Virus record (IMG/VR): IMGVR_UViG_3300027779_002128
Span: 1 to 64,000 of that record
Length of the DNA stretch: 64,000 bases
Source of the DNA: a virus
Reading direction: 5' to 3' (one strand)
A program made the translations under genes and the position numbers. The notes under the pieces were generated by a model. It saw nothing but the letters and a program-made list of their open reading frames with translations. It searched no databases and was not told where the DNA came from. Below, piece after piece: positions 509 through 22,895 of the stretch (position 1 is the first letter of the stretch; every line of letters begins with the position of its first letter).

Positions 509-1009
509 CTAGCTAATTAACTCGCCCGTAATCTGCATTGTGTAGCGAGGGAGTATGCCTATGTTACTTGCCGCGTGGGGAACGTCTGCACTCCATAGTG
601 CGTAGTCGCCGGCTTTCCAATTGGTAACTGCTTTGCCGTTGAACTCTAAGTAGTGTCCTGGGTGCCAGTCTTCCATGAACACTAATGCTCTGTATGTGTT
701 GTCTCTTGTTACGCCGAATACACGTTCGTACGTTTCAAAGTGATCTGTGTGCGTAGGCATTATGTCTAGAGTATCCATTTTATAGAATACATAGCCTGTG
801 TTAGTTAAGCCTATCTTGTGTGCTACATAGTCTACCCAGTCTGGCATTGGATTACGACTGTCATACATGCCGCCGGAGAATGATGCATGATAGTAGCCTT
901 TGGCTTGCCATGTGTGTATCTCAGAGTCTTTAATAGGTTGCTTAGTGTAAGCGAAGTGAGTATGTTCGTCTGACCACACAGGAGTTATGTGTCCTTGCCT
1001 GGCTATCAT
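509..1009 (-). CDS. 2-oxoglutarate/Fe(II) oxygenase-like protein
   Basis: Probable non-haem iron, 2-oxoglutarate-dependent oxygenase of the double-stranded beta-helix fold. Counting from a TTG start at 1042 (177 residues), it shows an HTD motif (H98, D100), a distal histidine in DVPHAASN (H156) and an arginine ten residues later (R166). These fit the HxD...H iron triad and the co-substrate-binding Arg. The ATG at 1009 is preferred because it forms an ATGA overlap with the stop of the amidinotransferase gene and has AAGGT upstream, giving 166 residues; the TTG would instead give a 37-base overlap. It is the last gene of the minus-strand block. Its substrate is unknown. Coupling to the amidinotransferase suggests that both act on the same small molecule or residue, which is inference. 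Confidence 0.6.
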   Translation of the reverse strand: MIARQGHITPVWSDEHTHFAYTKQPIKDSEIHTWQAKGYYHASFSGGMYDSRNPMPDWVDYVAHKIGLTNTGYVFYKMDTLDIMPTHTDHFETYERVFGVTRDNTYRALVFMEDWHPGHYLEFNGKAVTNWKAGDYALWSADVPHAASNIGILPRYTMQITGELIS

Positions 1010-1974
1010 GATGCTGACCTTATAGTGTCTAGTGTTACGCAATGGAAGCCACCACCTAGTGTGCGTTGATGTCTAGTAGGCAACATAGCACAATCAATGC
1101 CATGCTTCTCTAGTTCTATTCGCAGACTGTGTTGGTTTTCTTCTAATGCTACTAACGTAGGGCTTATGCTTAACATGTTCATGTTAATCCACACACTAGC
1201 ATTGTTGTAGTCGCCGTAGTAACCTATGTCTGTTGGCTCTGGGCACATTATGTAATCCCAATGTCTAAATGGTTCAGGCAGTTGGTTTACGTCTTTAATT
1301 CTTGTAGGGTTAAGCAACATCAAGCCTTCTCGTAGGAAAGCAACTGTGCTGTCTATGTGCATGTAACTGTACACACCTTCTAGTGGGTGTATGTTTAATC
1401 CTGTGTGTTTTTGTAACCAGTCAGCGCCTGCACGGTTTCCTGAGTTACTTACTAGGTACAGTATATCATCATTAGCACGAATACAGTTAGCCGCATCGAA
1501 ACTTGGTGCTACTTCTGTTAATGCTAGAGTGTCTGGGTCGCCTAAACACTTGGTATTGTATAAGTCATCAGCATAGTATCTAGGTGCTTCAGTAATAGTT
1601 GGGAAGTGATGTGCTAGTGGATGATAGTTACATGCTCTTGCTCTAATAGGCATAGGGGTTGCTATAGCATGTTCGCCATGCAAGAACACTATATCCCTAG
1701 GACAGTAATCATAATACTTAACAACTTGATCGGAATCAAACGGTCTAAGTACTTCTATACTCTCACCTTCAAGAAACTTAACAAATGTTTCTAAGTCTTC
1801 GTCTGCTTCTTGCGTTACAATGTCTGGGTAAGGACCTGTGTGTATTGTGTTAGCATCTTCTACGTCTGCATAGTTGACCAATCGCATACTTAAATCTAAG
1901 TCCGGTACTCTTGCACCTCTTGCCCTTCCTACTATAACCTGTCTAAGTGTGTCCCACTCATTTTTTGCGTACAT
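1006..1974 (-). CDS. Glycine amidinotransferase-like enzyme (GATM family)
   Basis: A 322-residue member of the guanidino-group-modifying (pentein) superfamily, closest by eye to L-arginine:glycine amidinotransferase. The matching blocks are PSFDAANCIRA with Asp160, YMHIDSTV with His206 and Asp208, and LGGGFHCVTLD with Cys312. These correspond to the Asp-His-Cys catalytic set of human AGAT (D254, H303, C407). The family moves an amidino group from arginine to an amine through a Cys-amidino intermediate. In bacteria such enzymes occur in secondary metabolism. Here the gene lies directly after the B12-type radical SAM gene and overlaps the oxygenase gene by ATGA. The acceptor is unknown. Family assignment is confident; glycine as acceptor is not shown. 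Confidence 0.8.
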   Translation of the reverse strand: MYAKNEWDTLRQVIVGRARGARVPDLDLSMRLVNYADVEDANTIHTGPYPDIVTQEADEDLETFVKFLEGESIEVLRPFDSDQVVKYYDYCPRDIVFLHGEHAIATPMPIRARACNYHPLAHHFPTITEAPRYYADDLYNTKCLGDPDTLALTEVAPSFDAANCIRANDDILYLVSNSGNRAGADWLQKHTGLNIHPLEGVYSYMHIDSTVAFLREGLMLLNPTRIKDVNQLPEPFRHWDYIMCPEPTDIGYYGDYNNASVWINMNMLSISPTLVALEENQHSLRIELEKHGIDCAMLPTRHQRTLGGGFHCVTLDTIRSAS

Positions 1975-4257
1975 TTATTCCTCTAGCTTTACGGTAATCA
2001 TATCAGCATCAATGGCTTTGAAGTTTGCCGCTTGAGCTAAATGCTTGTTGTCTGCGTTAACACCGGCTGTAATAACATCTGGTACTGCTACGTTATGCGA
2101 ACCTCGTTCCCACTTGCCTTTGCCTTTGTAGTTGTGTTCAAAACTAAAGTCTATAGTTTTGTTTAAAAATGATTCTTCTTCTAGTAGCTCACCAAAGTCT
2201 GTTTGGCTTCTACCCTCAGTCTTGCTCCACTCAGGCTTTGCAAGTTTTCTAGCACGTTTGGCTGTGTTTGATTGCATACGTGAGTAGTCCTGTGCATAGA
2301 ACGGACCTTTACGTCCACCTTCACTCATAGGCTTCCTATCATCGAATGGATTGTCTACTTGGTTGTATTTGTATTTAAAGTTTGCTTTCCATGTACCGTC
2401 ATCAGCAATAACAAATTTATATGTACCGTGGAACTGATCTGCTGGACCAAACTGACTGCCGAATTCTTTGCTGTCTATGTCAGGGTTAAAGTCTACTGTA
2501 CATCTATAGCCGCCTCTGGTTAGCCACATCATTCTCAAGAAAGGCCATATCTCATTTACTAGACTGTCTGCGAATGGTGATATGTCTGGTTTAATTATGT
2601 TGTAGTCAAAGTCCTCATACTCAATCTCATGATATACATTTGGTTTATTAAGTCTAATAACATAGTGTTCTCTAGCTAGGTTGTGCCTAACAGGGTAACC
2701 AAACGGTACGTCAGTTGCGCCTACCATAAAGTCTATGAATGTATGGAACAGTTTAACCCTGTGCATAACATGTATGCCTGCAATAGTAAAGTCATTACTG
2801 ATCCAATGGTTCTGATACTTGTGATAACTAATGTTCCACTTATGAGGATTCTGTCCTACAATAGTTTCAGGACCTACTGCCATACCTACACCAGCACCAA
2901 TGTTGTTGATGTTCATGTTTCTGTTACGCCAAAGGAATGTCATTGTTCTTGCAAAGTCGTGATGTTGTTCTGTAGGAAAGCCTACGATCCAATTAGTCGC
3001 GGCATACACCCCATGCTTCTTACCTGACTTAAAGTTGTCTTCCATCTCTTTAATAGTTACGCCTTTAGCCATGTCGTCTAATACTTTCTGTGAACCTGAC
3101 TCGCAACCGTAGTTAAGCATAATACAACCACCGGCGGCTAAGTCCTTGAAGTAGTCATCGTCCATGCGTCCGTCACAACGAGCATACCCAGTCCATCTCA
3201 TCTTAATGTTCTTTTCTCTGAGTGCAATAGCAAATGCTCTAAGTTCATTTATGTTACCGTTAATCAAACTATCAATGAACCACATAATGTCTGCACCCTT
3301 CTCATAGTACAAGTATTCTGCTTCACGCAACACATCTATAGCAAGACGTTGTCTGTATTTCCAAAAGTGTGTTTCTTCGCAGAACGTACACTTAGCAGTA
3401 CAACCACGTGAGAACTCTGAGGTTACTCCGTTGGGTACTTTGTATTCGTTAAAGTCTAAACCTTCGTAGTCAGGCATAGGCATATCATTAATATTGATAC
3501 GCTCCATTTCTTCCTGTGTAATCTTATACATAGGACCTCGGTCTATACCATCTTCTTGATCTTGAAGTATAGCAAGTATAGCCGCTTCGCCTTCTCCTGT
3601 GCATATATAATCGTAGTAAGGTTGTATGTCAAACCAATCCTTCTGTACGTTAGATCCGCCTACAGCAATTTTAATGTGTGGCGCTCTCTTCTTAAGTTCT
3701 TTACACATCCACTTAGTTGGTTCTTCTGATATGTAGTATTGACTAAAGCCTACTACTTCGGGATTCTCTTCTATAATATGTTGCAAGCCTTCTTCGAGGA
3801 TAGGCTCTAGCAAAGGATGTATATCATTCATGTATGTTTCACCTAGCCAATGCCAACTGGCAGAAGGATCCCATAACCTAAAAGGAATTAGCTTTTCAGG
3901 TTGCCAAATGTTTTGATGTGCGTTGTAGGCTTTAACATTTAAGTCAAGTATGCTTGTTTCGTACCCAGCACTCTTACAAACGCCACTTAGTCTTGCTAAG
4001 TTAAACGGTGGAAACTCTGGTGCCCACTCAGGACACATAACTAATATTAATTTTGTTGTTCTTGTTTTGTAGTCTACATAAACTGACTTTGTGTTCTTCT
4101 GCTGTACCTTCTTAGAAAATGGTGAAATCATATCCATCATCTGTTGATGTCGTTGATCCTCCACACTCATCTCAGGCTTTTCGTACCTGTCTTCATCAGC
4201 CTTGTCTACTGCAATGTTAGTAAGATTAAAATCTACATGTTTTTTATGTTCGTCCAT
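1975..4257 (-). CDS. B12-binding-domain-type radical SAM protein
   Basis: A 760-residue radical SAM enzyme. Residues about 68-230 look like the Rossmann-type cobalamin-binding domain found in this class (PPFNLARLSGVCKSAGYET, then EVVGFSQYY, IAVGGSNVQ and CTGEGEAAI), although the classic DxHxxG cobalamin ligand is not visible. The 4Fe-4S motif is SRGCTAKCTFC with Cys286, Cys290 and Cys293, followed by a TIM-barrel region. A long C-terminal extension of about 300 residues is rich in charged and aromatic residues and is not recognised. Relatives carry out methylation, cyclisation or rearrangement. It sits between the amidinotransferase gene (1 base apart) and the 539-residue transferase-like gene. 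Its substrate is unknown. Confidence 0.75.
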   Translation of the reverse strand: MDEHKKHVDFNLTNIAVDKADEDRYEKPEMSVEDQRHQQMMDMISPFSKKVQQKNTKSVYVDYKTRTTKLILVMCPEWAPEFPPFNLARLSGVCKSAGYETSILDLNVKAYNAHQNIWQPEKLIPFRLWDPSASWHWLGETYMNDIHPLLEPILEEGLQHIIEENPEVVGFSQYYISEEPTKWMCKELKKRAPHIKIAVGGSNVQKDWFDIQPYYDYICTGEGEAAILAILQDQEDGIDRGPMYKITQEEMERININDMPMPDYEGLDFNEYKVPNGVTSEFSRGCTAKCTFCEETHFWKYRQRLAIDVLREAEYLYYEKGADIMWFIDSLINGNINELRAFAIALREKNIKMRWTGYARCDGRMDDDYFKDLAAGGCIMLNYGCESGSQKVLDDMAKGVTIKEMEDNFKSGKKHGVYAATNWIVGFPTEQHHDFARTMTFLWRNRNMNINNIGAGVGMAVGPETIVGQNPHKWNISYHKYQNHWISNDFTIAGIHVMHRVKLFHTFIDFMVGATDVPFGYPVRHNLAREHYVIRLNKPNVYHEIEYEDFDYNIIKPDISPFADSLVNEIWPFLRMMWLTRGGYRCTVDFNPDIDSKEFGSQFGPADQFHGTYKFVIADDGTWKANFKYKYNQVDNPFDDRKPMSEGGRKGPFYAQDYSRMQSNTAKRARKLAKPEWSKTEGRSQTDFGELLEEESFLNKTIDFSFEHNYKGKGKWERGSHNVAVPDVITAGVNADNKHLAQAANFKAIDADMITVKLEE

Positions 4258-4268
4258 ATCCCTCTACT

Positions 4269-5888
4269 TTAAAACTCAGCTACTAAATCGTAGTCTGTGG
4301 TGTTTAATTTTTTCAGTGACAAGAAATGATTATAGTTATAATCTATAATCGGTTTCAGTTTCACTTGTAGTTCTAGCCACTCATCGTCTGTTAAATTTGT
4401 TAAACGTAATATTTCTTGCTCTATTGCTACATGCCTATCGTTGTCATCTTTTATAGTATCGTAATCTTCATTAAACAATCCTTCGAATGTTTTATATCCA
4501 ACTACTCTCAAATACTTTAATGTTCCAGGCAATGCCGCAACAATAAATGGATGTCTATGAGCAATAGGCTTATAAACTTTCTCACTTATAAACACACCAT
4601 CTGTATGTATACAGCAACACGGTCTAGTTCCTGTATCTATTAAATTATGATAAAAGTTTGTTTCGTTAACAACACTAAAATAACTGTTATCAAAGTAACC
4701 AGCATCTTCAACGTTAATATCTACAGGATTATCTCTTCCACTAGTTCTATTTAGCACTAAAGGCAACCTATTCCAGAGTTTATAGATATTTTCTATGTAC
4801 GGATCATCTCTAAATTCTTTATCAATATTCTTATTATTTTTTATGTCCCACGAGCTTCTTGTAGAAAGGACTATGTCACTGTTCTTTATATCAAAACTTA
4901 CATAACTTTTCTCGATTAGATCGTGCTCAAATAAGAATCCTACCATACGAGCTCGTTGCCATCTAGGCATTCTATTAAAGCAAAGTAACTTCTTTTCTCG
5001 TTTGCCTATCTTAAACTCTTTCCCTGCCCATACTGGGTGCTTAGTAAAGTCTAATGTTCTATTACCTTCGAATCCAGCCTCCATGGAAGTCTTAGTTACG
5101 TTCTCAAAACGCATACCACTAATAATTTTCATCTTAGGTTGTATACCCATCAGCTGACACATGTGATTATAACTTGCTGTGCCGTCCAATGAACTAGTTA
5201 ACATGAACCATGTATTGCTTGGCATGTAATCAAGTTGGTCAATAAACCTATGTGCTTTGTGAATACTCTGCGGTTGTAAGGCTTCATCAGCATTAGAGAA
5301 AATAACTTTGTCTTTTCCTCTACCTAATGCTTTTTCTATTGCACTTAGTACTTCCATGTGGTTCACTCTATCGATTGCGTGGTCTTCATTAGCACCTGCG
5401 TATACTGGATATATTCTATGCCAGTACTCTACTAGCTCAGGATGTACGCCTAGTATTTGTTCTTGGAACATTCGATCAGCATGTTTACTAAAAGGTTTCA
5501 TAAAGGTTGCTGTTGTACCTTGTCTGTCTTGTTGTTCCCACCTGTCGTTTTGCCAGAAGTAACATTCGTAGGCCCGACTTGCTTCACGAATCCAAGACGC
5601 TATATGAGGAGCTGGTAGCAACTTAGGTAATACAAACACAGTAGACCATGATTTGTATTGGCGCGGATTCTTAGCGTCTAATATTAATACAACGTTTGGA
5701 CCCATTAGATTATTCTGTATGCGTGAGTTGGCGTTACTGTAGTCTTCCATAGTATTAAATTTTGCACCTAGCTTATGTAATGCATCTTTGAGAGGAAGGC
5801 TATCGCTATTCCACTCGCCCTCTACACAAATACACTCGCCGTGCTGACTAATGAAGCCTGCTTGCTCTGTTGCTTTTATATATTCCAT
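4269..5888 (-). CDS. Probable glycosyltransferase, SEK-KPI-PF family (copy 1)
   Basis: A 539-residue protein whose last 120 residues carry a block shared with three other genes here: an acidic ETN about 30 residues before SEKVYKPIAHRHPF (near residue 430), then GYKTF and an acidic NEDYD. The spacing of the upstream Glu and the EK resembles the nucleotide-sugar-binding end of GT10 fucosyltransferases (FENS...TEK...A...PVV), so a GT-B-type sugar transferase is likely. The N-terminal part is unlike its paralogues. It may be a second domain, since HRIYPVYAGANE near residue 160 and FSNADEALQPQ near 200 look GT-A or Rossmann-like. It overlaps the SGNH-like gene by 13 bases. Donor and acceptor are unknown. 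Confidence 0.5.
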   Translation of the reverse strand: MEYIKATEQAGFISQHGECICVEGEWNSDSLPLKDALHKLGAKFNTMEDYSNANSRIQNNLMGPNVVLILDAKNPRQYKSWSTVFVLPKLLPAPHIASWIREASRAYECYFWQNDRWEQQDRQGTTATFMKPFSKHADRMFQEQILGVHPELVEYWHRIYPVYAGANEDHAIDRVNHMEVLSAIEKALGRGKDKVIFSNADEALQPQSIHKAHRFIDQLDYMPSNTWFMLTSSLDGTASYNHMCQLMGIQPKMKIISGMRFENVTKTSMEAGFEGNRTLDFTKHPVWAGKEFKIGKREKKLLCFNRMPRWQRARMVGFLFEHDLIEKSYVSFDIKNSDIVLSTRSSWDIKNNKNIDKEFRDDPYIENIYKLWNRLPLVLNRTSGRDNPVDINVEDAGYFDNSYFSVVNETNFYHNLIDTGTRPCCCIHTDGVFISEKVYKPIAHRHPFIVAALPGTLKYLRVVGYKTFEGLFNEDYDTIKDDNDRHVAIEQEILRLTNLTDDEWLELQVKLKPIIDYNYNHFLSLKKLNTTDYDLVAEF

Positions 5889-6682
5889 TGGTCACCGTGC
5901 TCGTCCCAGGGCCACTGTGGGTCATCGAACACTTCTTGTAATGTTGTTTGTTTCATTATGTCGTCACTAAAGTCGGCGTATTGCTTACTAGCATCTCCTA
6001 ATGGAAAGCCAATGTGTACTAACCAATCTCTGTACACAGGCGCACTAGGGTGATAGTCTGCAAACTCACTGCCGTCATGTGTACTTTTATATGTGTAATG
6101 TACCGGCCACTTGCATTCGTTATAAGTCCATAAACACGGCTCTACAATGTCTAAGTCGTTGTACATATTCTGTATGCTATGTGTTTCTTCGTCTGAGAAG
6201 CCTGCATAGTATCCTTGACCGTTTAAACCTAATCCCATTAAGCCTACACTATCAAACTGTTCTTGCTTTAGTGATTGTGTTACTGTGTCTATAATTGCAC
6301 AATCACGCATAGTCATACCTTGCACATCTACATGTTCCTTAAAGTACTCTTCGCTGAACACATCGTCTCTACCAAATACATTACCTGGAGTACGCCATTG
6401 TCCTTTAATCCACTTGTCTTCTCTGTAGAAAGTACTCCAACAGATAACAACTAAGTCTTTGTTTGTTAAGGACATTTTTCTTTTTGCTTGACTAAGCATT
6501 GTTTGTATGTAACTGTTTCCTGCACCACACTTACCTAAGTTTGTAAACTCTGCATTAGGCATATCCTGTGCAAGTAAGTCGGCCCATGTTGCCCAGCGGT
6601 ACCTAGTAAAACTACAGCCAAGTGTTACTAATCTATCGTACTTAGACAAGTCTATATCAGCAATGTTTGTATTGTAGTACAT
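5876..6682 (-). CDS. SGNH/GDSL-type hydrolase-like protein
   Basis: A 268-residue protein with a block I nucleophile elbow LGCSFT (Ser24) after a beta strand, a GAGNSYI block (residues 53-59) and a C-terminal ADYHPS (Asp209, His211). These suit the SGNH esterase fold. Such enzymes remove or add O-acetyl groups on sugars or proteins. Its place between two putative glycosyltransferase genes (13-base overlap downstream, TAATG-like junction upstream) fits glycan acylation or deacylation. No signal peptide is visible, so cytoplasmic action is likely. The Asp-His spacing is shorter than the common DxxH, so catalytic competence is not certain. Confidence 0.6.
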   Translation of the reverse strand: MYYNTNIADIDLSKYDRLVTLGCSFTRYRWATWADLLAQDMPNAEFTNLGKCGAGNSYIQTMLSQAKRKMSLTNKDLVVICWSTFYREDKWIKGQWRTPGNVFGRDDVFSEEYFKEHVDVQGMTMRDCAIIDTVTQSLKQEQFDSVGLMGLGLNGQGYYAGFSDEETHSIQNMYNDLDIVEPCLWTYNECKWPVHYTYKSTHDGSEFADYHPSAPVYRDWLVHIGFPLGDASKQYADFSDDIMKQTTLQEVFDDPQWPWDEHGDQWNI

Positions 6683-8196
6683 TAAAAGTCTCTGTTCATT
6701 TGTGCATTTATTATAGTTTCTTGCAATGTTTCTTTATTATCAGGACTAGCCCAACTAACAGCTTGCAACGGCTTATTTAAATCTGATTTCTCTATGTGAG
6801 TTATTCTACCTAGCCTACTACGTTCAGCCATTCTCTTGTAGTTATGCTGTAAGATTGGCCACATCTTAATATACAATGCATGGCATTCATCTAAACTTAA
6901 CCCAGAGATGTAATCCATTATTTCTATTAGCTTTTCTGTTCTAACTAAGTGATCTTCTTCTAAGTCATATCCCTCGTCCCAGAAGTCTCCGAATGTTTTG
7001 TAACCTAACTTATGTAAGTATTGTATTGTATATGGAGGAGCAATTAATAAGAACGGTGTCTTAAATTGCATTGACTGTAATACTTTTTCTGATATGTTTG
7101 CAGTAGGTTGTCCGTAACGACTCTCGATACATATATCTACAAACGTTTCCCTGTACAATGGTTCCAGTGGTAAGTGTGTAGGGTTAACTACAACAGGGTT
7201 ACCAATGTTATCAAAGTCTGTGTTCTCTGGATAATGGTGCCCAGCACATTCATGTGCAAACGTTGAGCTTCTTGCACCAACATCATACGTTAGTGGAACA
7301 ACTTTGTTTAACATGTCTATGCCTTCTTTTAAGTTAGCAATAAACTTAGGCTCTCTATCAGGCTCTTGCTCTCCAGCACCGTTAACATTCATCCACGGGG
7401 TATCTAGTAACGTTTCAAGTGGCGTTTCGAAGAACCATATAATGTTACTGTTAATACCTTTAGTCTCGTACTGTTTTAGTATAGCACACATGATTGCTCT
7501 AATAGAAGTAAACCTCCAGCATGTGCAAACAAAATGTTTCTTGAAACTACGCTTAACAGTTATGTCTGCGTTGTTGTACATTATTAATTCGTTTAAGAAC
7601 GGATCGTCACATAGCAGTTTCATTTGCTTGGCATAAGAACTACATGCTTTTTCTACGCCATAGTCACCTGTGTGTACTATTACATTATACAATTTATTCT
7701 GTCCAGCAAAGTAACCAATAGTATCTAGTTCGGTTGAACGTACTCTATTGTGTGTGCCTGTTCCGTTTACATTCTCTCTAGGAAACTCTGTATAGAATCC
7801 GTAATTATAAGCAGACCCCCAGTAACCAGCAAGAGGATCATTTTCATAGTACATGCATATTGGTTCGTACAAAAATATGTGTAAGCCTTTTTTGTTTAGT
7901 AGCTCTACAGTACTAGCGCCAAGTTTTAATTCTATTAACTGTTTGATCTCACCGTTGGCTTGATAAAACAAACACGGAGCATCAATATCCTCATCTTTGT
8001 TCCAGCGTCTAAACTCTGTCCAAGTTCTAATACGTGGAATATCTCGTATAGTTGCTTTCATAATGTTTGGGTGACTGATTGCACCCTCAGGAAAATTATG
8101 ATATGCTAAACTACTTGTTACTTCTTCGTAGTTGATACTTAGCTCATCAGTAACTGCTTTGTTAGTAACTGTACTGGTTTTATCTAACTGTGCCAT
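6682..8196 (-). CDS. Probable glycosyltransferase, SEK-KPI-PF family (copy 2)
   Basis: A 504-residue protein with the shared C-terminal block: CIESRYGQP, then NISEKVLQSMQFKTPF (about residues 362-380), HKLGYKTF and EGYDLEED. It is the most diverged of the four copies, because KPI has become LQSM. The middle part has HFVCTCWRFTSIRA and a long variable region with IIWFFETPLETLL. It starts at a TAATG junction with the 409-residue paralogue, so three of the four family members are almost adjacent. A soluble GT-B-like sugar transferase is inferred from the motif resemblance to fucosyltransferase-type enzymes. Donor and acceptor are unknown. Confidence 0.5.
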   Translation of the reverse strand: MAQLDKTSTVTNKAVTDELSINYEEVTSSLAYHNFPEGAISHPNIMKATIRDIPRIRTWTEFRRWNKDEDIDAPCLFYQANGEIKQLIELKLGASTVELLNKKGLHIFLYEPICMYYENDPLAGYWGSAYNYGFYTEFPRENVNGTGTHNRVRSTELDTIGYFAGQNKLYNVIVHTGDYGVEKACSSYAKQMKLLCDDPFLNELIMYNNADITVKRSFKKHFVCTCWRFTSIRAIMCAILKQYETKGINSNIIWFFETPLETLLDTPWMNVNGAGEQEPDREPKFIANLKEGIDMLNKVVPLTYDVGARSSTFAHECAGHHYPENTDFDNIGNPVVVNPTHLPLEPLYRETFVDICIESRYGQPTANISEKVLQSMQFKTPFLLIAPPYTIQYLHKLGYKTFGDFWDEGYDLEEDHLVRTEKLIEIMDYISGLSLDECHALYIKMWPILQHNYKRMAERSRLGRITHIEKSDLNKPLQAVSWASPDNKETLQETIINAQMNRDF

Positions 8197-9425
8197 TAAT
8201 AATTTACCTTATGTGCAAAGTCATATTTATGTTTGCTTTGTAAGGTCCTAAAGTTTTTGTCGCAAATTTCTTTTACGTTATCTAACCATGTATAAAGTTC
8301 TTCGCCTTGTAATGCATCTAAGCGTTTTGTTTCTTCTATAATCATTTGCATACGTTTAATATCGTCTTGCTCAGCATCGTAACTTTCATTGATATAAGGA
8401 GCAAACGATTTGTACCCTATGCTTTTGAGAGCTGACATACTTCCGCATGGTGCTATTAATATAAACGGGTGCTTAAAACTTATAGGCTTAAATACTTTCT
8501 CACTAAAAAATATACCGTGCTCTTCATCACTTTCGAAGTAATGGGTTTCACTTACTAAACTAAAATATGTTTCAGCATACATCCAATCATCTGATTCAAT
8601 AAAGTCTGCTCTGTTTGTTACAAGCTCTTTGTGGTCAATATACTTAGGCGGCATGTTTACTAGCTCGTCCTTTATTGACATTAACTGTTTTGTAAGATTA
8701 ATGTTTTTAGTATCTTTGCATAGTTGTAATAGAACAGGGAACATCTCAGTCCAGTCTCGATCATCGTCACTAGGACCAAAGCTAATTAGACCACTGTCTA
8801 TTAATCCTTCTGCTAATAGCATAGAAACAAACAATGGTCTATGTGTGCGCCAACGTCTATTAAAGTTTAAAAATGATGTTGCATATTCTTTTTTCTCGAG
8901 TGTAGGCTTAAACTTAAGACGTTTATGACCTAGTAAATACTCTAGAGTATTGTTCGCACCCTTCTCAAAGTCTAAGATAATCTTTATTTTAATAGAGTCT
9001 TGGTTGTCTCTAGTAGCAACTATCTCTTGATTAAGTTTGTTTGCTTCAAAGGCACCTGTCATTAGTATAATCTTATGTGCAGGTATGCTGTAACGGTCCA
9101 CTAGACCGCTGTAAACGTCTTGTACGCAACTTAAGAAGGCTTCGTGACTATTTGCCACAACTAAGTAAAAATTGCTATTAGAACGCTTTAAACGAGCTAA
9201 AACAGTAGAGTCAAGTAACTCTTCTAGTTGTATTAATCCTAACGCAGGACTCTTACGAAACTCTATAATGTAGTAATCGTTTTCAGACTCGCTCCAATCA
9301 TGCATAAATGTAATCATAGGAGTATCACGCTCTTCAGACCATAATTTAATAACTTCGCCAAGTCTAGTAAGTTCTACATCAAAGAACGTTACCTTCGCTT
9401 CATGGTTAATCAATGCCAACTGCAA
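8196..9425 (-). CDS. Probable glycosyltransferase, SEK-KPI-PF family (copy 3)
   Basis: A 409-residue protein, nearly the minimal form of the family. FSLVSETHYF is followed by GIFFSEKVFKPISFKHPF (about residues 303-320), KSIGYKSF, NESYDAEQDD and a C-terminal helical tail. An upstream FLNFNRRWRTHRP (about residues 186-198) matches CFNRMPRWQRARM of copy 1 and may be the phosphate-contacting region. It overlaps the last 20 bases of the SPASM-like radical SAM gene and runs into copy 2 by TAATG, so the three genes are probably translationally coupled. The role in glycan assembly is inferred. Confidence 0.5.
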   Translation of the reverse strand: MQLALINHEAKVTFFDVELTRLGEVIKLWSEERDTPMITFMHDWSESENDYYIIEFRKSPALGLIQLEELLDSTVLARLKRSNSNFYLVVANSHEAFLSCVQDVYSGLVDRYSIPAHKIILMTGAFEANKLNQEIVATRDNQDSIKIKIILDFEKGANNTLEYLLGHKRLKFKPTLEKKEYATSFLNFNRRWRTHRPLFVSMLLAEGLIDSGLISFGPSDDDRDWTEMFPVLLQLCKDTKNINLTKQLMSIKDELVNMPPKYIDHKELVTNRADFIESDDWMYAETYFSLVSETHYFESDEEHGIFFSEKVFKPISFKHPFILIAPCGSMSALKSIGYKSFAPYINESYDAEQDDIKRMQMIIEETKRLDALQGEELYTWLDNVKEICDKNFRTLQSKHKYDFAHKVNY

Positions 9426-15670: not shown

Positions 15671-15676
15671 GTTTTA

Positions 15677-16987
15677 TTATCCCTGTTTAATTCTCGTATT
15701 ACCGTAATGCACAACCTTCACGCCTTCGATATTAGGAATCTGTCTCCACGGGTCTAACACAATACTACCGACTGGAAACTGTAACTCAGTTCCGTTGCCT
15801 GTAGAAACAGACAATGCTGTGTCGCAATCTGTTCTATTATGTTTGCCGTTGTACCATCCTGGTACGTTATCTAGTTGGTCACCATAAGTGATACCTGGAT
15901 TGTGTGCTAGTAAGTATACTGCTGGCTCACTAAGTTTATCGTCTAACGGCACGTCACCAGTTTTCTCATCATAGTAATGTAATTCAAATCCTGCTTTTTG
16001 TATGTAGTGTCCTACTAGCATACTGGCCGAACCTGCATCATATTCTACTAAAGGCTTGTAAGCCTTACCGACTATAATGATTGGCAATCCGTTTACTATA
16101 TCACCTGCTAACTCCATTAAACGTTTTGCCATGTTCTCTGCTTGTACTTCTCGTGAAAGCATCACAGCATCAAACAAGTCGTAACCTAACCCTAAGTTCT
16201 CAGCCATCCACCGTAGTGCGATATTATCTCTTGGGTGACAAGCACCACCATCGCCCATACCCGGCTTCATATATCCAGGTCCCATGATACGTCTATCACT
16301 TGAAGCTAATGCATCACAAACAACTTCCGCGTTTATGTTACCTTGCTTTTCTGCAACGTCTTGAATCATATTTACTAAGGATACTTTTGCTGATATAAAT
16401 GTATTGTAAAATACTTTAATGCACTCACATTCATCCCAGGTACCTATAATATACCTTGGATCGTTCTGCATTATTGTTTTATAAAAGTCTACAAGTTGTT
16501 TTGCATCACCTGTTTCACTTCCATCTGCGGTTCCAATCATTACCATTTCTGGATTAACCATATCCCATTTTACTGTACCCATTGCAATTAAGTATGGGTT
16601 GTAAATAAAACGAGCATTAGTTAAGAGTGGAATAAACTCACGTCTAACAGTACCTGGTAGTACTGTGCTAATAAGGACTATTAGTTGTTCATTGGTTGCT
16701 ACCGCATTTACTTTCCTAAGGATATCTTTAACTATACTGTAATCGAAATCCTTATTAGGTAAATGGCTGGTAGGTGCTTTTCCATCATACTGTGGGTCAT
16801 GCGGTGTAGGCACAGCAACAAAGACAATTTCTTGTCCTCTTACTGCATCTTCCACTGTATCAACCATTGCAAAGTTTTCAGGCTCTACAGGGTTAATGTC
16901 AAACCCAACAACATCATGTACTTCAGCGACCATTTCGGCGCAGGCTTGTCCTAACTTGCCAACTCCGATAAATCCGACTGAGGCCAT
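15677..16987 (-). CDS. UDP-glucose/GDP-mannose dehydrogenase family protein
   Basis: A 436-residue NAD-dependent nucleotide-sugar dehydrogenase that would oxidise a hexose to a uronic acid by two steps. The N-terminal Rossmann fold has GFIGVGKLG (residues 5-13) and LISTVLPGTVRREF. The central domain has FYNTFISAKVSLVNM, and the active site is GMGDGGACHPRDN with the catalytic cysteine Cys250. The C-terminal domain begins near IIIVGKAYKP. The usual GGxCFPKD is here GGACHPRD, a conservative departure. AGGAGATAAA precedes the ATG. A GATAAATA octamer lies 41 bases upstream, so a late promoter may drive it. It probably supplies uronic acid to the transferases of this block. Confidence 0.85.
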   Translation of the reverse strand: MASVGFIGVGKLGQACAEMVAEVHDVVGFDINPVEPENFAMVDTVEDAVRGQEIVFVAVPTPHDPQYDGKAPTSHLPNKDFDYSIVKDILRKVNAVATNEQLIVLISTVLPGTVRREFIPLLTNARFIYNPYLIAMGTVKWDMVNPEMVMIGTADGSETGDAKQLVDFYKTIMQNDPRYIIGTWDECECIKVFYNTFISAKVSLVNMIQDVAEKQGNINAEVVCDALASSDRRIMGPGYMKPGMGDGGACHPRDNIALRWMAENLGLGYDLFDAVMLSREVQAENMAKRLMELAGDIVNGLPIIIVGKAYKPLVEYDAGSASMLVGHYIQKAGFELHYYDEKTGDVPLDDKLSEPAVYLLAHNPGITYGDQLDNVPGWYNGKHNRTDCDTALSVSTGNGTELQFPVGSIVLDPWRQIPNIEGVKVVHYGNTRIKQG

Positions 16988-17027: not shown

Positions 17028-17819
17028 TTATTTATCAGGATTGAATTCAGGTTTTATATGTATTTGGTTAGCTTCATATAGAATATTCATGCTGTTCCAG
17101 AAGTCGTAAAATTGTTGAGGGGTAAGTATGCAAGGATTATCGCTGTCGTCGTCACCTAAATATTTTTCAATAGAGACAACACCTTTGTATGCTACAGCAA
17201 TACCTGGGAATATTCCAGCTTCACGACTCTCGTATGCTATTGCAACATCAGGGAAAGCCTGTTGTAAATCATCTATGTGTGCTAGTTCAAGCTCTTCTAT
17301 TTTAGGCGGAAACTCGCTACTAGCATAGTATACAGTTAGTTTATCTCTACCTGACTCTTTATAATATCGCATAACATCATGTACATGCTGATGACTATAT
17401 ATAACATGATCAAAGTTATCTTTAGCATAGCGTATCAAGTCTTCAATCGGTTCTATAGCATCATAATGAAGTTTAAGTATGTGTGCATTGCAATGCTCGT
17501 TGACCCAGGCCGCGGCCTGATCATCAGTAACACTCCATATAAGCGGTATGCCAATATCTTTGCAAAAGTCTGTTATTGCTATTGCGTTGCTAGGAGTAAG
17601 TTCTGAACGTTTGGCTACATCAATGTATGCCATTGTCCCCCACTTACTTGCAATAGGAACATACTTTTTATTTTTAGGAACAGTTAATGTGGGTGTACTT
17701 TTACTAAGAACGATTGCATCGGCATTGCCTGTTGCGGCTGATACTACTCGTTGTTTTAATACCTCAATGTCGTTCTCATGCCCTATTCCGATATTTGCAT
17801 AAAGTTTAATTGCCACCAC
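17028..17819 (-). CDS. NeuB-like (sialic acid synthase family) protein
   Basis: A 263-residue TIM-barrel protein resembling N-acetylneuraminate/legionaminate synthases, which condense phosphoenolpyruvate with an N-acetylated sugar. The opening ANIGIGHENDIEVLKQRV matches the AEIGxNHxGD family start. TDFCKDIGIPLIWSVTDD fits the kelGi...STpfD block. IAYESREAGIFPGIAVAYKG followed by VVSIEKYL fits the SDHT...AavalGAxxIEKH block. It is shorter than typical NeuB (about 340), lacking the C-terminal SAF antifreeze-like domain, and several consensus residues are changed. The true substrate could therefore differ. The start is GTG (17819 or 17816), overlapping the upstream gene by 14 bases. Confidence 0.65.
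   Translation of the reverse strand: MVAIKLYANIGIGHENDIEVLKQRVVSAATGNADAIVLSKSTPTLTVPKNKKYVPIASKWGTMAYIDVAKRSELTPSNAIAITDFCKDIGIPLIWSVTDDQAAAWVNEHCNAHILKLHYDAIEPIEDLIRYAKDNFDHVIYSHQHVHDVMRYYKESGRDKLTVYYASSEFPPKIEELELAHIDDLQQAFPDVAIAYESREAGIFPGIAVAYKGVVSIEKYLGDDDSDNPCILTPQQFYDFWNSMNILYEANQIHIKPEFNPDK
17029..17036 (-). promoter_or_regulatory. Late-promoter-like octamer GATAAATA
   Basis: GATAAATAAC on the minus strand matches the T4 late -10 element TATAAATA at seven of eight positions. It overlaps the NeuB-like stop codon and lies 41 bases before the dehydrogenase start at 16987. The same octamer precedes several other genes here. Confidence 0.45.
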
Positions 17820-18819
17820 CTATCAAGCCCTTCTCAAGCAAGTCTTGAATTTGTTTTTCTCTAATCATTACACCCCAGCGTTTAGGGTTAACAAATGTCT
17901 TCTTAAAGAACTCACACATCTTAGGGTCCGGATTAAACAACATCATTTGATTTACGTTGTCGTTAAGCCTATCACCTAGTTCACATACTTCGGTGTATAA
18001 TGCGTCCTTATCCCATAATAGTTTACTATACTTACATTTTTGATCAGCATTAGTATTAAAGTTAATAGCAACCTCATCATAGAAGAATGATTTAAACCAG
18101 TCATAGTCTGATATTAAATTAACCTCCCAGTCGCTAGTTACAGCCATCTCACAGCCTAGTCTTGCTCCATAGATAGCCCATAAGCCATTTTCTATATCAC
18201 TACCAATGTTGCACCATGTTTGTAGTCTATTATAATTTCCATACCATATTTTTTCTTGGAACTCGTCTGCCCTAACTCTCTTCCCTTGATCCAAACTCAT
18301 TTTAACACCTTCCCTAAACCCTGCTCTAAATGCCTGGAAAGGACTTGCTGTTTGGTGTACTTCTGAGAATGTGTCGTTAAGTTGTATGTAGTTTAACTTC
18401 CAACAAAACTCCATGCCCTCACCGTCATCCGATGCTTCATGGGTGCTAATTGTTTTAGTGTATTCCGTAGGCCAACATTTAAGTCCGCCGTTACCATATA
18501 CTAATCCATTTAAAATGTTTTTACCGTTCCAACTAAATATGCTCTGGCTAATATCGTTACCGTCATGATCAGTGTCTGGGAAGTCTAATGCTTGTTCAAA
18601 GAAGTCTGGCATAACAATGTTGTCGCCGTCTACTGTGATAAATCGTTCTGTTTCTGCTTGATTGGCGCATTCTTTATGTGCGGCATCAAACCCTTTAACG
18701 CCGTGTACTCGTTTAGCCCAAGGTACTTTGTTTAATAAGTCAGCCCAATGCTCTTCGCAATTAGGTTCGTCATATGAGATATAAAATATATCTAATTCTG
18801 TGACATCTTGTTTTGGCAT
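17806..18819 (-). CDS. GT-A-type glycosyltransferase-like protein
   Basis: A 337-residue protein that opens with a beta strand (LDIFYISYDEPNCEEHWADLL) and then WAKRVHGVKGFDAAHKECANQAETERFITVDGDNI. A DGDN motif after a hydrophobic strand is the expected metal and nucleotide-sugar site of GT-A transferases. The C-terminal half is probably acceptor-specific and is not recognised. It starts at a TAATG junction with the 400-residue SEK-KPI-PF protein and overlaps the NeuB-like gene, so the three are likely co-translated. Family is moderately sure; donor and acceptor are unknown. Confidence 0.55.
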   Translation of the reverse strand: MPKQDVTELDIFYISYDEPNCEEHWADLLNKVPWAKRVHGVKGFDAAHKECANQAETERFITVDGDNIVMPDFFEQALDFPDTDHDGNDISQSIFSWNGKNILNGLVYGNGGLKCWPTEYTKTISTHEASDDGEGMEFCWKLNYIQLNDTFSEVHQTASPFQAFRAGFREGVKMSLDQGKRVRADEFQEKIWYGNYNRLQTWCNIGSDIENGLWAIYGARLGCEMAVTSDWEVNLISDYDWFKSFFYDEVAINFNTNADQKCKYSKLLWDKDALYTEVCELGDRLNDNVNQMMLFNPDPKMCEFFKKTFVNPKRWGVMIREKQIQDLLEKGLIGGGN

Positions 18820-20021
18820 TATGTATGTGTCTCTTTGCGTTTGTTGTAGAGCAAGTTGTTGGTACCGGTAGCAAATGCAAAGAAGTCATCAGCATAACTG
18901 TTAAAACCGGGAATAACATCTGTAATGTTATTTATTGTTTGTTGATGTATTTTCATAGCATGTTCTTGATTATATGTAATGCGTCCTTGTATATATTCTA
19001 AATCTAAGTTCTCTATGTTATTTAATACTTTTTGCGTATTATCGACGCAAGTTTTGAACTCACTTAACGTATTTCTATTATAGGGGTAAATATCTTTGTT
19101 GACACCCGCATGAGGCAACCATTCTGTAGTAGCGTCTGGCTGGTATAGTTTAAATCCTAACGTTGTTAGTTTATTTACAAATTGAGGATGTATGTACACA
19201 AACGGATACCCAAGCACAATAGGCTTAAACGTTTTCTCTGTTACATGAGCTAAACTGGATGCACTAGTCTCTGCAACTATTTCGACTGCAACATCGTTGT
19301 ATAGCTCTGGAGGAAGCATGTCAAAATCCTTACGTCCAGTCTCATTTAGCCACGGTCTATCTATAACTTTAGCAACATTGTTAACCATGCTTCTCATAGC
19401 ATCAAACGAATGGGGTTGATTATCGTAAACAGTTGTCCACGCTTCAAAAAGTTTTACCTCTGAATGCTCAGACCAATGTTCCATTTGTTCATATGTCATA
19501 CAAGCATATTTTAAACTATCGCTTATACTAGAGTGCAAAAAATAGTAAAGTGCAGGGAATCTTGATGGCTTCCACAGCTTACCAGGAAGAAATAATACTT
19601 TTGAATTAGACGGTTTCCATGTAAGATTTTCAATATTGTCTTTAGTGTATGTACTTATAGCTTGATGCAAAAACCACCATATGCTTAACACGTTATCATA
19701 TTGTTCGGCATGTTGAAACGTTGAATTAGTTAGAATTAAATAGTTACTAACAAACTTAGTGCTGTTAATATGTTTAGTTAAACAGTCGCACCAAAGTCGC
19801 ATACCATCGGAATCTGCATTTTCTTCGATATTTAATAACACTATTACTTGTAAATTTTCTGCTAGTGCAATATCAATAATTTTGTTTACTAGCACAGCCG
19901 CCGCGTGGCCTATGTCAACATCATCATTAGTGGCCGCCGTGGGTATATGGGCAACCGCACAGTCATCAAAAAACTGTATATTAAAAGGATAACCACCTTC
20001 TTGCCAAGAGACACGTCTCAT
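18819..20021 (-). CDS. Probable glycosyltransferase, SEK-KPI-PF family (copy 4)
   Basis: A 400-residue protein with the shared C-terminal block: VEIVAETSASS, then HVTEKTFKPIVLGYPF (about residues 257-273), TTLGFKLY and a trailing helical segment. This copy has TEK in place of SEK, which is closest to the fucosyltransferase-type TEK motif. The gene lies about 9 kb from the other three copies, next to the GT-A-like genes. It is therefore a separate duplication rather than part of the tandem run. The N-terminal half (HIPTAATNDDVDIGHAAAV, IVLLNIEENADSDG) looks like a Rossmann fold. Function in sugar transfer is inferred. Confidence 0.5.
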   Translation of the reverse strand: MRRVSWQEGGYPFNIQFFDDCAVAHIPTAATNDDVDIGHAAAVLVNKIIDIALAENLQVIVLLNIEENADSDGMRLWCDCLTKHINSTKFVSNYLILTNSTFQHAEQYDNVLSIWWFLHQAISTYTKDNIENLTWKPSNSKVLFLPGKLWKPSRFPALYYFLHSSISDSLKYACMTYEQMEHWSEHSEVKLFEAWTTVYDNQPHSFDAMRSMVNNVAKVIDRPWLNETGRKDFDMLPPELYNDVAVEIVAETSASSLAHVTEKTFKPIVLGYPFVYIHPQFVNKLTTLGFKLYQPDATTEWLPHAGVNKDIYPYNRNTLSEFKTCVDNTQKVLNNIENLDLEYIQGRITYNQEHAMKIHQQTINNITDVIPGFNSYADDFFAFATGTNNLLYNKRKETHT

Positions 20022-20747
20022 TTAACTACGTTGGTACTTGTCGAATAATTTTACTGTGTACACACTACAATGTCGTAAGTCACCTAAAAGTTTTCGTGTA
20101 ACTTTCTTTTCTGTAATTAGTTCTGCAAGACTTATAATTTCATAATGAAACATTGTGTGTGGATCGTGCTCGGCTGTTAAGAAGAACTTTAATAATCGTT
20201 GCCCTTTAATAGTTGCACTAATTGGGTACACATCTTTGTACACTTCTTTTGATTTGTTACTTAAACTAACAACCAATTCGTCTACATTTACAGAACATTT
20301 AATATCAAATGATGTACTCTTGCCGTAATCAATTTCGTTAAGGAAATCTTTTTCTGCTTCTGTGTATATTGTGTTGATGCTTTTTAGTTCAATGCTGTAT
20401 AAGTTATCTACTTTAGGATCAATATTTACTCTGTACTTATGAGACTCCGTTTGATTACTTGTTAAGATAGTTAACTGCTCTTGAGAAAAGTTAAACGTTT
20501 GCCAGCCTTCTTGTATGTGTGTATCTGTGTTTTGTGTTAGACAAACTATCTCACCACTTTTATCAAAGTATAATTTCCACTCTTTGTCTTTTTGAGCTTG
20601 TATTAGATTTTCAGCACCACCTGCCTTTTCTTTTTCAGCAAGGAAACGTTTCCTTCTTTCTAGTGCGGCATTAGATACAACGTTATCTTGTTGTGCTTCT
20701 TCTACCACAGCCTTCTTAGTAGTCTTTGTTTTCTTTTTAGTAGGCAT
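20022..20747 (-). CDS. Hypothetical protein with lysine-rich N-terminus
   Basis: A 241-residue protein I do not recognise. Residues 1-16 are very basic (MPTKKKTKTTKKAVVEE), followed by a charged helical stretch to about residue 55 and then a mixed beta-rich domain (EWKLYFDKSGEIVCLTQ, FDIKCSVNVDELVVSLSN). The remainder reads as a compact globular domain without transmembrane segments. Phage structural or scaffold-associated proteins often have such basic tails, but nothing here fixes a role. It overlaps the start of the upstream glycosyltransferase gene by 11 bases and is directly followed by copy 4 of the SEK-KPI-PF family. Confidence 0.75.
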   Translation of the reverse strand: MPTKKKTKTTKKAVVEEAQQDNVVSNAALERRKRFLAEKEKAGGAENLIQAQKDKEWKLYFDKSGEIVCLTQNTDTHIQEGWQTFNFSQEQLTILTSNQTESHKYRVNIDPKVDNLYSIELKSINTIYTEAEKDFLNEIDYGKSTSFDIKCSVNVDELVVSLSNKSKEVYKDVYPISATIKGQRLLKFFLTAEHDPHTMFHYEIISLAELITEKKVTRKLLGDLRHCSVYTVKLFDKYQRS

Positions 20748-21600
20748 AAGAATCCTCCATTTGTTTAATCATTTTGTCTGTTAGCCACTCGTCTTCTACA
20801 TAATGGAATGGTAGTTGTTGTTGGAAGTTTCCTACCTTAAAATTCTTACAATCTTTATAGTATGTAGGCAAACTATCGGTCCATGTTTCGCTAAGTGCGG
20901 CACCTTTTACTTCTTGTATATGACTTTTCATATGTATAAATGTAGGTACTGCTTCAATATTTTCTCTACAACATTCTTGTTCAATTCCCAGTAGTTGCAT
21001 TGCTAAAGCAAATGCTACGTCTCCACTGAGCCAATCAGGCTTGCCTTTTGGCATATACCTGTGAAAGAATCTTTGCCAATGCTGGAATATAATTTCAGTC
21101 ATTGCGAATAGCTCACTTGCTAGATCACTTTGTTTAAAGTAAAAGAATGCTGTGTAGACATTAGGTAAGCCATTTGCAACAAAGTATTTTCTGTAGTAAT
21201 CACTGTTAACAACCTCGCCTCGGTATGTTCTAACTTTAGTTGTTACCCAAACATCACGTTGACCCATAATATCCCACCAATGACTTACATCTGTAGGGAA
21301 TAACATATCAGTATCTAATACTACAGTCTCATCATACGGAGTCATATAGTAATACTTCCACTTGTTATTAATTTTCCATTCGGCATTTTCTGCGTCGTCT
21401 GACCAAGGTATGTCAACAATATTATCAAATACTTTTGTATGCTTAGGCTTAATTAGTTCTCTAGTCGCTGGGTCTACACACACCGTTAGATTGCTTACAA
21501 CCGTCTGTGTTGCTTTTAAATTCAATGCTAGTGCATACGCCTGCTTTAAGTAATCAGTCGTGCTGTTGTTTTGTGCTATTACTATATAACCCTTACTCAT
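20737..21600 (-). CDS. GT-A-like glycosyltransferase (paralogue A)
   Basis: A 287-residue protein starting IVIAQNNSTTDYLKQAYALA, with the DxD-type site PYDETVVLDTDML near residue 95. The 318-residue gene just upstream has the same opening (VIMFAHNNTEIDYIKLAYVNS) and site (PYDETILLDVDYL), so the two are paralogues. The pattern fits nucleotide-diphospho-sugar transferases related to GT8. DWLSGDVAFALAMQLLG further on is probably part of the acceptor region. It overlaps the DUF1289 gene by 8 bases. Sugar and acceptor are unknown. Confidence 0.6.
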   Translation of the reverse strand: MSKGYIVIAQNNSTTDYLKQAYALALNLKATQTVVSNLTVCVDPATRELIKPKHTKVFDNIVDIPWSDDAENAEWKINNKWKYYYMTPYDETVVLDTDMLFPTDVSHWWDIMGQRDVWVTTKVRTYRGEVVNSDYYRKYFVANGLPNVYTAFFYFKQSDLASELFAMTEIIFQHWQRFFHRYMPKGKPDWLSGDVAFALAMQLLGIEQECCRENIEAVPTFIHMKSHIQEVKGAALSETWTDSLPTYYKDCKNFKVGNFQQQLPFHYVEDEWLTDKMIKQMEDSYAY

Positions 21601-21787
21601 TTGCTATTCTCTCTAATACTTTATTCTTTTCATCGTCAGTCATTGTATACCAGTCTCGCATCTCGGTAGCAGTTCTAAAACAACCGATACAATACTCTCC
21701 GCTCTCATCAAAAGTACAAACTTTGATACACGGACTTATTACTGTTGAGGGAGGCCTAGCCTTTCCCCTTCTCAAATCTTCTTCCAA
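21593..21787 (-). CDS. DUF1289-family small cysteine protein
   Basis: About 64 residues. ISPCIKVCTFDESGEYCIGCFRTATEMRDWYTMTDDEKNKVLERI matches the DUF1289 pattern: SPCxxVC, then CxGCxRT and a W...M(S/T)DxEK helix. Four cysteines suggest a small metal- or iron-sulfur-binding module. The family is mostly proteobacterial and its function is unknown. No ATG is available upstream of the domain; a TTG at 21787 or at 21775 is the probable start. The gene overlaps the 56-residue gene upstream by 16 bases and the GT-A-like gene downstream by 8. Confidence 0.75.
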   Translation of the reverse strand: MEEDLRRGKARPPSTVISPCIKVCTFDESGEYCIGCFRTATEMRDWYTMTDDEKNKVLERIANE

Positions 21788-21942
21788 TCCTCTTTAAACA
21801 AACAGAACCTACTATGTCCGCTAGATGTTTTATAAACAAATTGTGCCGCTAACAGTTGTATTACTTTGCCTTCAAACTTTCCATTAAGACGACATGTGTG
21901 TTCTATCTTATCGCCTAGCTCAGGTTTCTTACGGCTACTCAT
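21772..21942 (-). CDS. Small hypothetical protein (56 residues)
   Basis: ATG at 21942 to TGA at 21772 reads MSSRKKPELGDKIEHTCRLN, then a short strand-rich stretch (KFEGKVIQLLAAQFVYK) and ends in FCLFKEDWKKI. The start forms an ATGA overlap with the stop of the upstream 318-residue glycosyltransferase-like gene, and the stop lies inside the DUF1289 gene, so the run is tightly coupled. The length and composition suggest a small SH3-like or OB-like binding protein, but no family was recognised. It is too short to stand out as a long reading frame, yet the coupling supports it as real. Confidence 0.65.
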   Translation of the reverse strand: MSSRKKPELGDKIEHTCRLNGKFEGKVIQLLAAQFVYKTSSGHSRFCLFKEDWKKI

Positions 21943-22895
21943 GTTCCTACAGTTTCTATTTCTTGTGCCTTAGCAATTTTCTTTGTAGGTGCTTTAGGCT
22001 GTGTAATAAACTTAATTAGTTCATCACCGATTCTATTTATAGCCCACTTATTCATAACATGTAGATCAACTCCCTTCCATCTAGTAAGAATAAAGTCGCC
22101 CGGACTCCTGACTTTTTCTAAATATAATAATAGATCGTTGCTCGCCAATGCTCTATCAACATCATCAAGATCAAATGTTTTATATAATTTGTGTGGTAAC
22201 TGTGCTACGCCTTTGTCTTGGTAGCCTCCAATCATGTGGGCGGCAATACTAAAACTATAATCGTTTCTATACATGCTTCCTTGCCACTTGTATAAGTCTC
22301 TGTAAAAATCTTTGTTGTTCTTAACATGCTTTACAAAATTAAAAAATGTTTCTGCATACGTTGACTTTTTAAAATAAACTACTGTAGCCCAATACATTGT
22401 TATACCAGTTGGACCGAGTCTATCTAGTTCCTCAAAGTTTCTTTCTGATAGTACGTCCTGAAACTCCCAATTCATCATTAGTTCATTGTTATGTCCCCAA
22501 CATTGATTGAGAGCATCACTCTGTATTAAGTAATCTACATCTAGTAAAATTGTTTCATCATATGGAGAGATATCATATGCATCGCACCTGTTAACATTGT
22601 AAAACTGTAACTGTTTTGATGTATGACTAGTGTCTTTATACATGCGTATGTTACTTTGCTTGAACTCCATGTCTTTATCAACTACAACTATATTTTTAAA
22701 TGCTTGTTGCATTTTTCTAATACCAATAGTTTTTTTGCCATGCTCGAGACTATGAGGATCAGTTACTACAGTAATTTGTGTTCGATCTAATCCCATGTGT
22801 TCTTGTATCAATAGACTGTTAACGTATGCTAACTTAATGTAATCTATTTCAGTATTGTTATGGGCGAACATTATCACCCCACGACTATTCGCCAC
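21939..22895 (-). CDS. GT-A-like glycosyltransferase (paralogue B)
   Basis: A 318-residue paralogue of the 287-residue gene downstream. It has VIMFAHNNTEIDYIKLAYVNS at the start, then a DPHSLEHGKKTIG segment and the DxD-type motif PYDETILLDVDYL near residue 115. VYFKKSTYAETFFNFVKHV and YSFSIAAHMIGG are the probable acceptor-side helices. The start is GTG at 22895 with AGGAAG upstream, inside the last 11 bases of the 123-residue gene. The C-terminal tail (APTKKIAKAQ) is basic. It is the first sugar-related gene after the structural block. Confidence 0.6.
   Translation of the reverse strand: MANSRGVIMFAHNNTEIDYIKLAYVNSLLIQEHMGLDRTQITVVTDPHSLEHGKKTIGIRKMQQAFKNIVVVDKDMEFKQSNIRMYKDTSHTSKQLQFYNVNRCDAYDISPYDETILLDVDYLIQSDALNQCWGHNNELMMNWEFQDVLSERNFEELDRLGPTGITMYWATVVYFKKSTYAETFFNFVKHVKNNKDFYRDLYKWQGSMYRNDYSFSIAAHMIGGYQDKGVAQLPHKLYKTFDLDDVDRALASNDLLLYLEKVRSPGDFILTRWKGVDLHVMNKWAINRIGDELIKFITQPKAPTKKIAKAQEIETVGT

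Follow-up and report, generated by a model that had tools for sequence, protein, structure and literature searches.

What is made by a long run of genes for sugar transfer, radical chemistry and guanidino transfer that lies beside the tail fibre genes of a phage? The question is raised by bases 1–64000 of the 75,631 bp IMG/VR virus record IMGVR_UViG_3300027779_002128 (the window), in which 21 genes, all on the minus strand and with short overlaps or short gaps between neighbours, occupy positions 509–23256 (Table 1). A sequence-only reading had described a unidirectional island with overlapping genes at 509–22895, following the fibre genes; direction, gene content and fibre linkage were all recovered, as was the 509 end, while the other end belongs at 23256 so as to take in unk21. 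That reading had also treated the island as one unit. We conclude that the island is genuine, beyond a chance collection of genes, and that, to judge from gene content and order in relatives, it is a composite of separable layers: a radical S-adenosylmethionine (SAM) core; a fast-evolving insert of glycosyltransferase (GT), SGNH hydrolase-like and UDP-sugar dehydrogenase (UGDH) genes; and a module encoding an amidinotransferase, a 2-oxoglutarate (2OG) oxygenase and a DegT enzyme. The explanation we favour, tentatively and just short of an even chance, is that the phage expresses the cassette late and uses it in the cytosol to modify its own fibre and baseplate proteins.

The core rests on radical SAM enzymes, which the sequence-only reading had reported without a number. 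We found six. Proteins scoring above 170 bits against NF033640 and carrying CxxxCxxC were assigned to the N-twitch family, which takes in Twi2 to Twi5; rSAM1 scores 39.8 bits against the same model (cut-off 170) and is a radical SAM enzyme of another family. The sixth is a B12-binding enzyme (B12-rSAM) with at least 308 viral relatives. Its CxxxCxxC motif, like the cysteine set of Twi5, is invariant across 19 homologues.

The sequence-only reading had proposed looking for the same gene order in relatives, and we did so in a comparison set of more than 100 related viral contigs. The core-bearing relatives are all metagenomic and contig ends often cut the loci, so absences are soft, and locus counts are not independent events. 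Among 65 distinct B12-rSAM loci, the order Twi3, Twi2, rSAM1 was kept in 38 of the 38 that carry all three genes and the longer order Twi5, Twi3, Twi2, rSAM1 in 26 of 26. Some loci carry nothing more than GTA1, Twi5, Twi3, Twi2, rSAM1 and B12-rSAM, which we therefore regard as the true core. B12-rSAM is less strictly placed than the other core genes, since in a minority of loci (L250, L261, L265, L266, L268 and L283) it stands before Twi5 and not after rSAM1. Thirteen contigs fetched in long pieces share the order of the window: baseplate, giant protein, fibres, unk21, GTA3, GTA2, GTA1, Twi5, Twi3, Twi2, rSAM1, variable insert, B12-rSAM, amidinotransferase, 2OG oxygenase. Thus the core is not scattered and keeps its order, on contigs of up to 360 kb, whereas the amidinotransferase/2OG/DegT module and the GT/SGNH/UGDH insert are gained and lost independently of it, and the idea of a single unit had to be given up.

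The core is also linked to the fibre genes. On the minus strand of the window, gp25-like and baseplate genes lead to a gene for a 7187-aa protein, then to fibre/S74 genes and finally to the cassette. In the window, as in 10 of the 10 fetched contigs that include the fibre side, the core directly adjoins the fibre/baseplate block, and in long contigs two to three GT-A-type glycosyltransferases bridge the two. The 7187-aa protein, a candidate acceptor, has YHYH and GLEYA domains above cut-off and a weak CBM5/12 match, and its domains are of adhesin or lectin type; homologues of 5300–7160 aa occupy the same place in relatives. Between the window and its nearest relative, dN/dS is 0.03–0.10 for most core genes, 0.18 for GTc, 0.23 for GTa and 0.41 for one fibre gene. 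These ratios indicate purifying selection on the core and point to a stable chemistry paired with fast-changing transferases and fibres. The baseplate protein at 57074–61285 is 39% identical to those of the jumbo myophages PA5oct and SCTP-2, and from this, together with the contigs of up to 364 kb that carry cassette relatives, the window is probably part of a fragment of a T4-related jumbo phage.

Late expression, which the sequence-only reading had proposed from a promoter ahead of the island, is supported by the motif TATAAATA 15–16 nt before the first cassette gene. Taken alone, TATAAATA is depleted in the window (2 against 9.5 expected) except at promoter-like positions, and the signal lies solely in the wider ATAAATA class. 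That 7-mer shows a 13:1 coding-strand bias, was seen 7 times at 5–60 nt ahead of gene starts against 0.35 expected, and precedes the giant protein, fibre genes, UGDH and GTb, that is, fibre genes and cassette alike. A general promoter and terminator scan gave no signal over shuffled sequences. The sequence GATAAATA precedes the genes for the giant protein, fib845, unk22 and UGDH, the last by 41 nt, which suggests a late promoter class DATAAATA.

Guanidino chemistry was also part of the sequence-only reading. The amidinotransferase scores 238 bits against StrB1, compared with 121 for HsvA, 113 for SxtG and 102 for AGAT (human glycine amidinotransferase), and in alignment with 1bwd it has the catalytic Asp, His and Cys of the pentein fold in place (FDAAN, HIDST, GGGFHC). 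Its nearest partners in 80 amidinotransferase loci are a 2OG oxygenase (74 of 80) and a DegT/StrS aminotransferase (PF01041) of about 200 aa (68 of 80). The three genes behave as a block: in the 65 B12-rSAM loci all are present in 24, none in 35 and some in 6 (all or none in 59 of 65), and 44 of 55 amidinotransferase loci have all three. In many loci DegT stands between B12-rSAM and the amidinotransferase; in the window group it has moved. This mini DegT (L004:14554–15171 and 67 other loci) keeps its pyridoxal phosphate lysine region, set against a Pfam model of 360 positions, and is possibly among the smallest members of its family. The 2OG-like protein, predicted earlier as an oxidative modifier, matches no Pfam or PDB family and is recognized by its invariant motif. 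In the streptomycin pathway, aminotransfer (StsC) is followed by amidinotransfer (StrB1). The phage module has the same enzyme families (StrS/StsC and StrB1), differing in the short DegT and in that other streptomycin genes were not seen. What the module suggests is guanidination, with an amino-sugar or cyclitol as the candidate acceptor, rather than arginine or creatine metabolism. Ordinary auxiliary metabolism (arginine, glycine, creatine or anaerobic fitness), as published for a similar cluster in phages CP220/CPt10 (PMC2853527) and implied by the listing of amidinotransferase as K00613 among viral auxiliary metabolic genes (PMC8226683), is the least likely account, given that StrB1 is a much closer relative of the enzyme than glycine amidinotransferase is, and that the enzyme is tied to a StrS-type aminotransferase and glycosyltransferases.

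Of the "several transferases" of the sequence-only reading, two are backed by predicted structures. For GTc the nearest Foldseek matches were glycogen synthase and trehalose-6-phosphate synthase (E = 1.5e-4, probability 0.99, TM 0.35–0.40), and for GTA1 they were SunS and GT2-type enzymes (E = 2.4e-5). As the TM-scores are modest and PDB profile searches with GTc, GTA1 and the 2OG protein gave no credible match, the two are assigned to fold class only (predicted GT-B and GT-A, respectively). GTa, GTb and GTc, and by motif GTd, come from a single, expanded GT-B-like family that no Pfam model covers. It is recognizable by SEK.FK.I..HPF, and 29 of the 80 amidinotransferase loci together hold 72 members. 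No full-length homologue of GTd was found among the fetched loci. UGDH, called correctly from the sequence, is 62% identical to a protein of Synechococcus phage Bellamy, shows by eye the GGACHPRD block with the catalytic Cys, and scores 154.6 bits against TIGR03026, under the cut-off of 189.8. The SGNH-like call stands by motif, with no Pfam match behind it. The NeuB-like call also stands in that the Pfam cut-off is passed; the precursor synthesis read from it is not supported, as all three phage copies aligned with SpsE (1vli) have other residues in place of both metal-binding His and the gene is limited to a few close relatives. A NeuB scan of viral contigs found no relatives, and sialic-acid-like synthesis was no longer considered central.

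Taken together, the results support a sugar and radical modification pathway of the kind first proposed. In our favoured explanation, GTA1–3 and the GT-B enzymes would assemble a short glycan on fibre or giant baseplate proteins while the virion is being put together, with UGDH providing a uronic-acid nucleotide sugar. The six radical SAM enzymes would act one after another, either on the sugar or on the protein backbone (C–C, C–N or C-methyl changes). Where present, the StrS-type aminotransferase would produce an amine, onto which the StrB1-like enzyme would move an amidino group from arginine, and the 2OG-Fe oxygenase would hydroxylate the product. The outcome would be a guanidinylated, radical-edited surface residue that changes how receptors are bound or how well host defences are withstood. 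Fibre adjacency, together with the lack of a clear membrane span or export role, favours an acceptor in the cytosol, in the simplest case the virion proteins then being made. None of the 21 cassette proteins has a clear signal or transmembrane segment, GTc having one marginal internal stretch.

Several points weigh against this explanation. Adjacency to fibre genes is no proof of substrate, and contigs G031 and G033 have the core without a fibre block. The acceptor site and the product are both hypothetical. The structural matches of the glycosyltransferases have low TM-scores (0.31–0.40), the amidinotransferase module is also found in cyanophage-type loci apart from the radical SAM core, and there is no DegT on the window contig, which stops 508 bp past the last cassette gene and may end before its own copy.

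Two alternatives are unlikely. One is that the enzymes remodel a host-envelope polysaccharide during infection (serotype conversion or superinfection exclusion), in the manner of cyanophage lipopolysaccharide gene clusters. UGDH relatives in phages Bellamy and HTVC008M do neighbour genes of types usual in polysaccharide loci (carbamoyltransferase, NadE-like and epimerase), and the peripheral glycosyltransferases could act on host lipid carriers; yet the cassette has no O-antigen or capsule export features, lacking a flippase, polymerase, ligase, initiating transferase or any clear membrane-spanning protein, and the late promoters and fibre linkage also speak against it. The other, which we regard as equally improbable, is a maturation like that of ribosomally synthesized and post-translationally modified peptides (RiPPs), in which the twitch and B12 enzymes would alter a virion polypeptide directly and the glycosyltransferases would only add sugars around. 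SPASM/twitch radical SAM enzymes are mostly peptide or protein modifiers, and the nearest folds to GTA1 include the peptide S-glycosyltransferases SunS/ThuS. B12-rSAM passes no NCBIfam subfamily cut-off; its best match is a RiPP C-methyltransferase model (TIGR03975), but at 92.8 bits, far under the cut-off of 281.85, and the small-molecule enzymes AprD4 and TokK are comparably near. No precursor peptide or leader gene was seen. A diffusible aminoglycoside-like small molecule acting on host or competitor is very unlikely: the combination of StrS, StrB1, GT, B12-rSAM and 2OG enzymes resembles aminoglycoside gene sets, but the cassette genes turned out to include no key cyclitol genes and none for an exporter or resistance, and the fibre linkage is fixed.

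The cassette falls into a known category, the phage surface-modification gene cluster, and the sequence-only suggestion of an undescribed system holds in part. Campylobacter phages CP220/CPt10, also T4-related, have five radical SAM genes in a row, an amidinotransferase, GT-A genes and a tail-fibre gene ~12 kb downstream, and were called metabolic in 2010 (Timms 2010, PMC2853527). Their amidinotransferase is 26% identical to that of the window and there is no B12-rSAM match; only one CP220 radical SAM protein matches a window protein, weakly (E ~1e-3), with 20–27% identity to those of relatives, and the authors described a swappable metabolic module, as against the fixed-order core of the window group. 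The marine T4-like genome TARA_ERS488813_N000010, with 12 radical SAM genes, was noted in 2017 and discussed as Fe–S metabolism (PMC5332604); its likeness, many such genes in one marine T4-like genome, is by description only. Viral amidinotransferases have been filed under glycine/arginine metabolism (PMC8226683). Synechococcus phage S-SCSM2R (PQ898602) carries 2OG-DegT-rSAM-GT25-2OG-amidinotransferase, its amidinotransferase being 59% identical and likewise accompanied by 2OG oxygenase, DegT and glycosyltransferase genes, but it lacks the N-twitch/B12 core. Vibrio phages K566/K567, cultured and large, have several N-twitch genes in tandem at 21–27% identity, without B12-rSAM or amidinotransferase matches in the 41 kb fetched. 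The isolate phage collection yielded no phage with the core: it had no B12-rSAM relative beyond partial matches of 21–27%, N-twitch matches only at 22–27% (two Vibrio phages), and no match for GTA1, GTA2 or unk22. The literature searched had nothing on the twitch family in phages, on radical SAM, amidinotransferase and glycosyltransferase together in marine phages, or on inosamine in combination with guanidino chemistry in phage. A genome scan with B12-rSAM for a cellular origin gave relatives of at most 34% identity over partial length, with a twitch homologue nearby in 1 of 80 loci. Within the literature and collections searched, the fixed-order, fibre-linked core and the amidinotransferase-DegT-2OG module therefore appear undescribed.

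Table 1. Features of the window and the evidence behind each assignment
Feature	Position	Strand	Evidence
2OG-Fe(II) oxygenase-like, 177 aa	509..1042	−	HxD..H..R invariant across 21 homologues
StrB1-like amidinotransferase	1006..1974	−	best PDB relative 1bwd (StrB1), E=1.3e-69
B12-binding radical SAM enzyme, B12-rSAM (core)	1975..4257	−	both Pfam domains above cut-off
Glycosyltransferase-like GTa (insert)	4269..5888	−	sequence kinship to GTc family
SGNH hydrolase-like (insert)	5876..6682	−	GCSFT / GxGN / D..HPS blocks by eye; kept in relatives
Glycosyltransferase-like GTb (insert)	6682..8196	−	groups with GTc family
Glycosyltransferase GTc, predicted GT-B fold (insert)	8196..9425	−	AlphaFold pLDDT 89.8 and Foldseek
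Radical SAM enzyme rSAM1 (core)	9406..10407	−	Pfam Radical_SAM 42.6 bits
N-twitch radical SAM Twi2 (core)	10389..11672	−	NF033640 374.8 bits
N-twitch radical SAM Twi3 (core)	11672..12916	−	NF033640 365.6 bits
N-twitch radical SAM Twi4 (some loci only)	12909..14192	−	NF033640 361.3 bits
N-twitch radical SAM Twi5 (core)	14192..15634	−	NF033640 296.2 bits
UDP-sugar dehydrogenase (UGDH)	15677..16987	−	Pfam above cut-off, NAD-binding and central domains; phrog_9148 E=3e-96
NeuB-like barrel	17028..17819	−	Pfam NeuB 58 bits, over cut-off
Glycosyltransferase GTA1, predicted GT-A fold with DxD	17806..18819	−	AlphaFold pLDDT 82.3; D64/D66 invariant
Glycosyltransferase-like GTd	18819..20021	−	TEKTFKPI..PF motif by eye
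Unknown protein unk7	20022..20747	−	kept in close relatives only
GT-A-like glycosyltransferase GTA2	20737..21600	−	D98 of DTD motif invariant; phrog_1903
DUF1289 protein	21593..21787	−	Pfam E=3e-18
GT-A-like glycosyltransferase GTA3	21939..22895	−	DVD motif by eye; syntenic in 10 contigs
Small conserved protein unk21, first cassette gene	22885..23256	−	dN/dS 0.03; in every case between fibres and GTA3
T4-type late promoter motif TATAAATA	23272..23279	−	upstream of unk21
Fibre / S74 block adjoining cassette	23346..33116	−	S74 chaperone domain; order same in relatives
7187-aa virion structural/baseplate protein, candidate acceptor	33138..54701	−	phrog_10938 E=1e-182

Some further observations may be of use. 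The extreme of N-twitch expansion was seen in two contigs, G009 (L120–L123; 77 kb) and G020 (behind L068; 117 kb), with 12 and 13 matches, respectively. The tandem N-twitch genes of Vibrio phage K566 (L295, 19980–26716), partly annotated as hypothetical, are a possible laboratory handle. The DUF1289 family is common in proteobacteria, and the lone DUF1289 gene amid the glycosyltransferase genes is a possible hint to the host. The non-coding contig end holds a near-perfect direct repeat at 137–206 (ttgcttatagtgtacaaaa).

The most far-reaching form of our favoured explanation, which we consider possible but doubtful, is that a line of five to six radical SAM enzymes, with a streptomycin-type aminotransferase and amidinotransferase, equips the giant baseplate and tail-fibre proteins with a guanidinylated, radical-edited glycan or peptide modification of a kind not seen before, and that this is widespread in aquatic jumbo phages. 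If so, hundreds of uncultured large phages would share a dedicated radical-chemistry pathway that decorates their host-recognition apparatus. Such a pathway would add a class to the known modifications of virions and would be a place to look for unusual radical SAM enzymes. Viral amidinotransferases would prove to have been misfiled under arginine and creatine metabolism, given that their gene keeps company with those for a StrS-type aminotransferase and a 2OG oxygenase.

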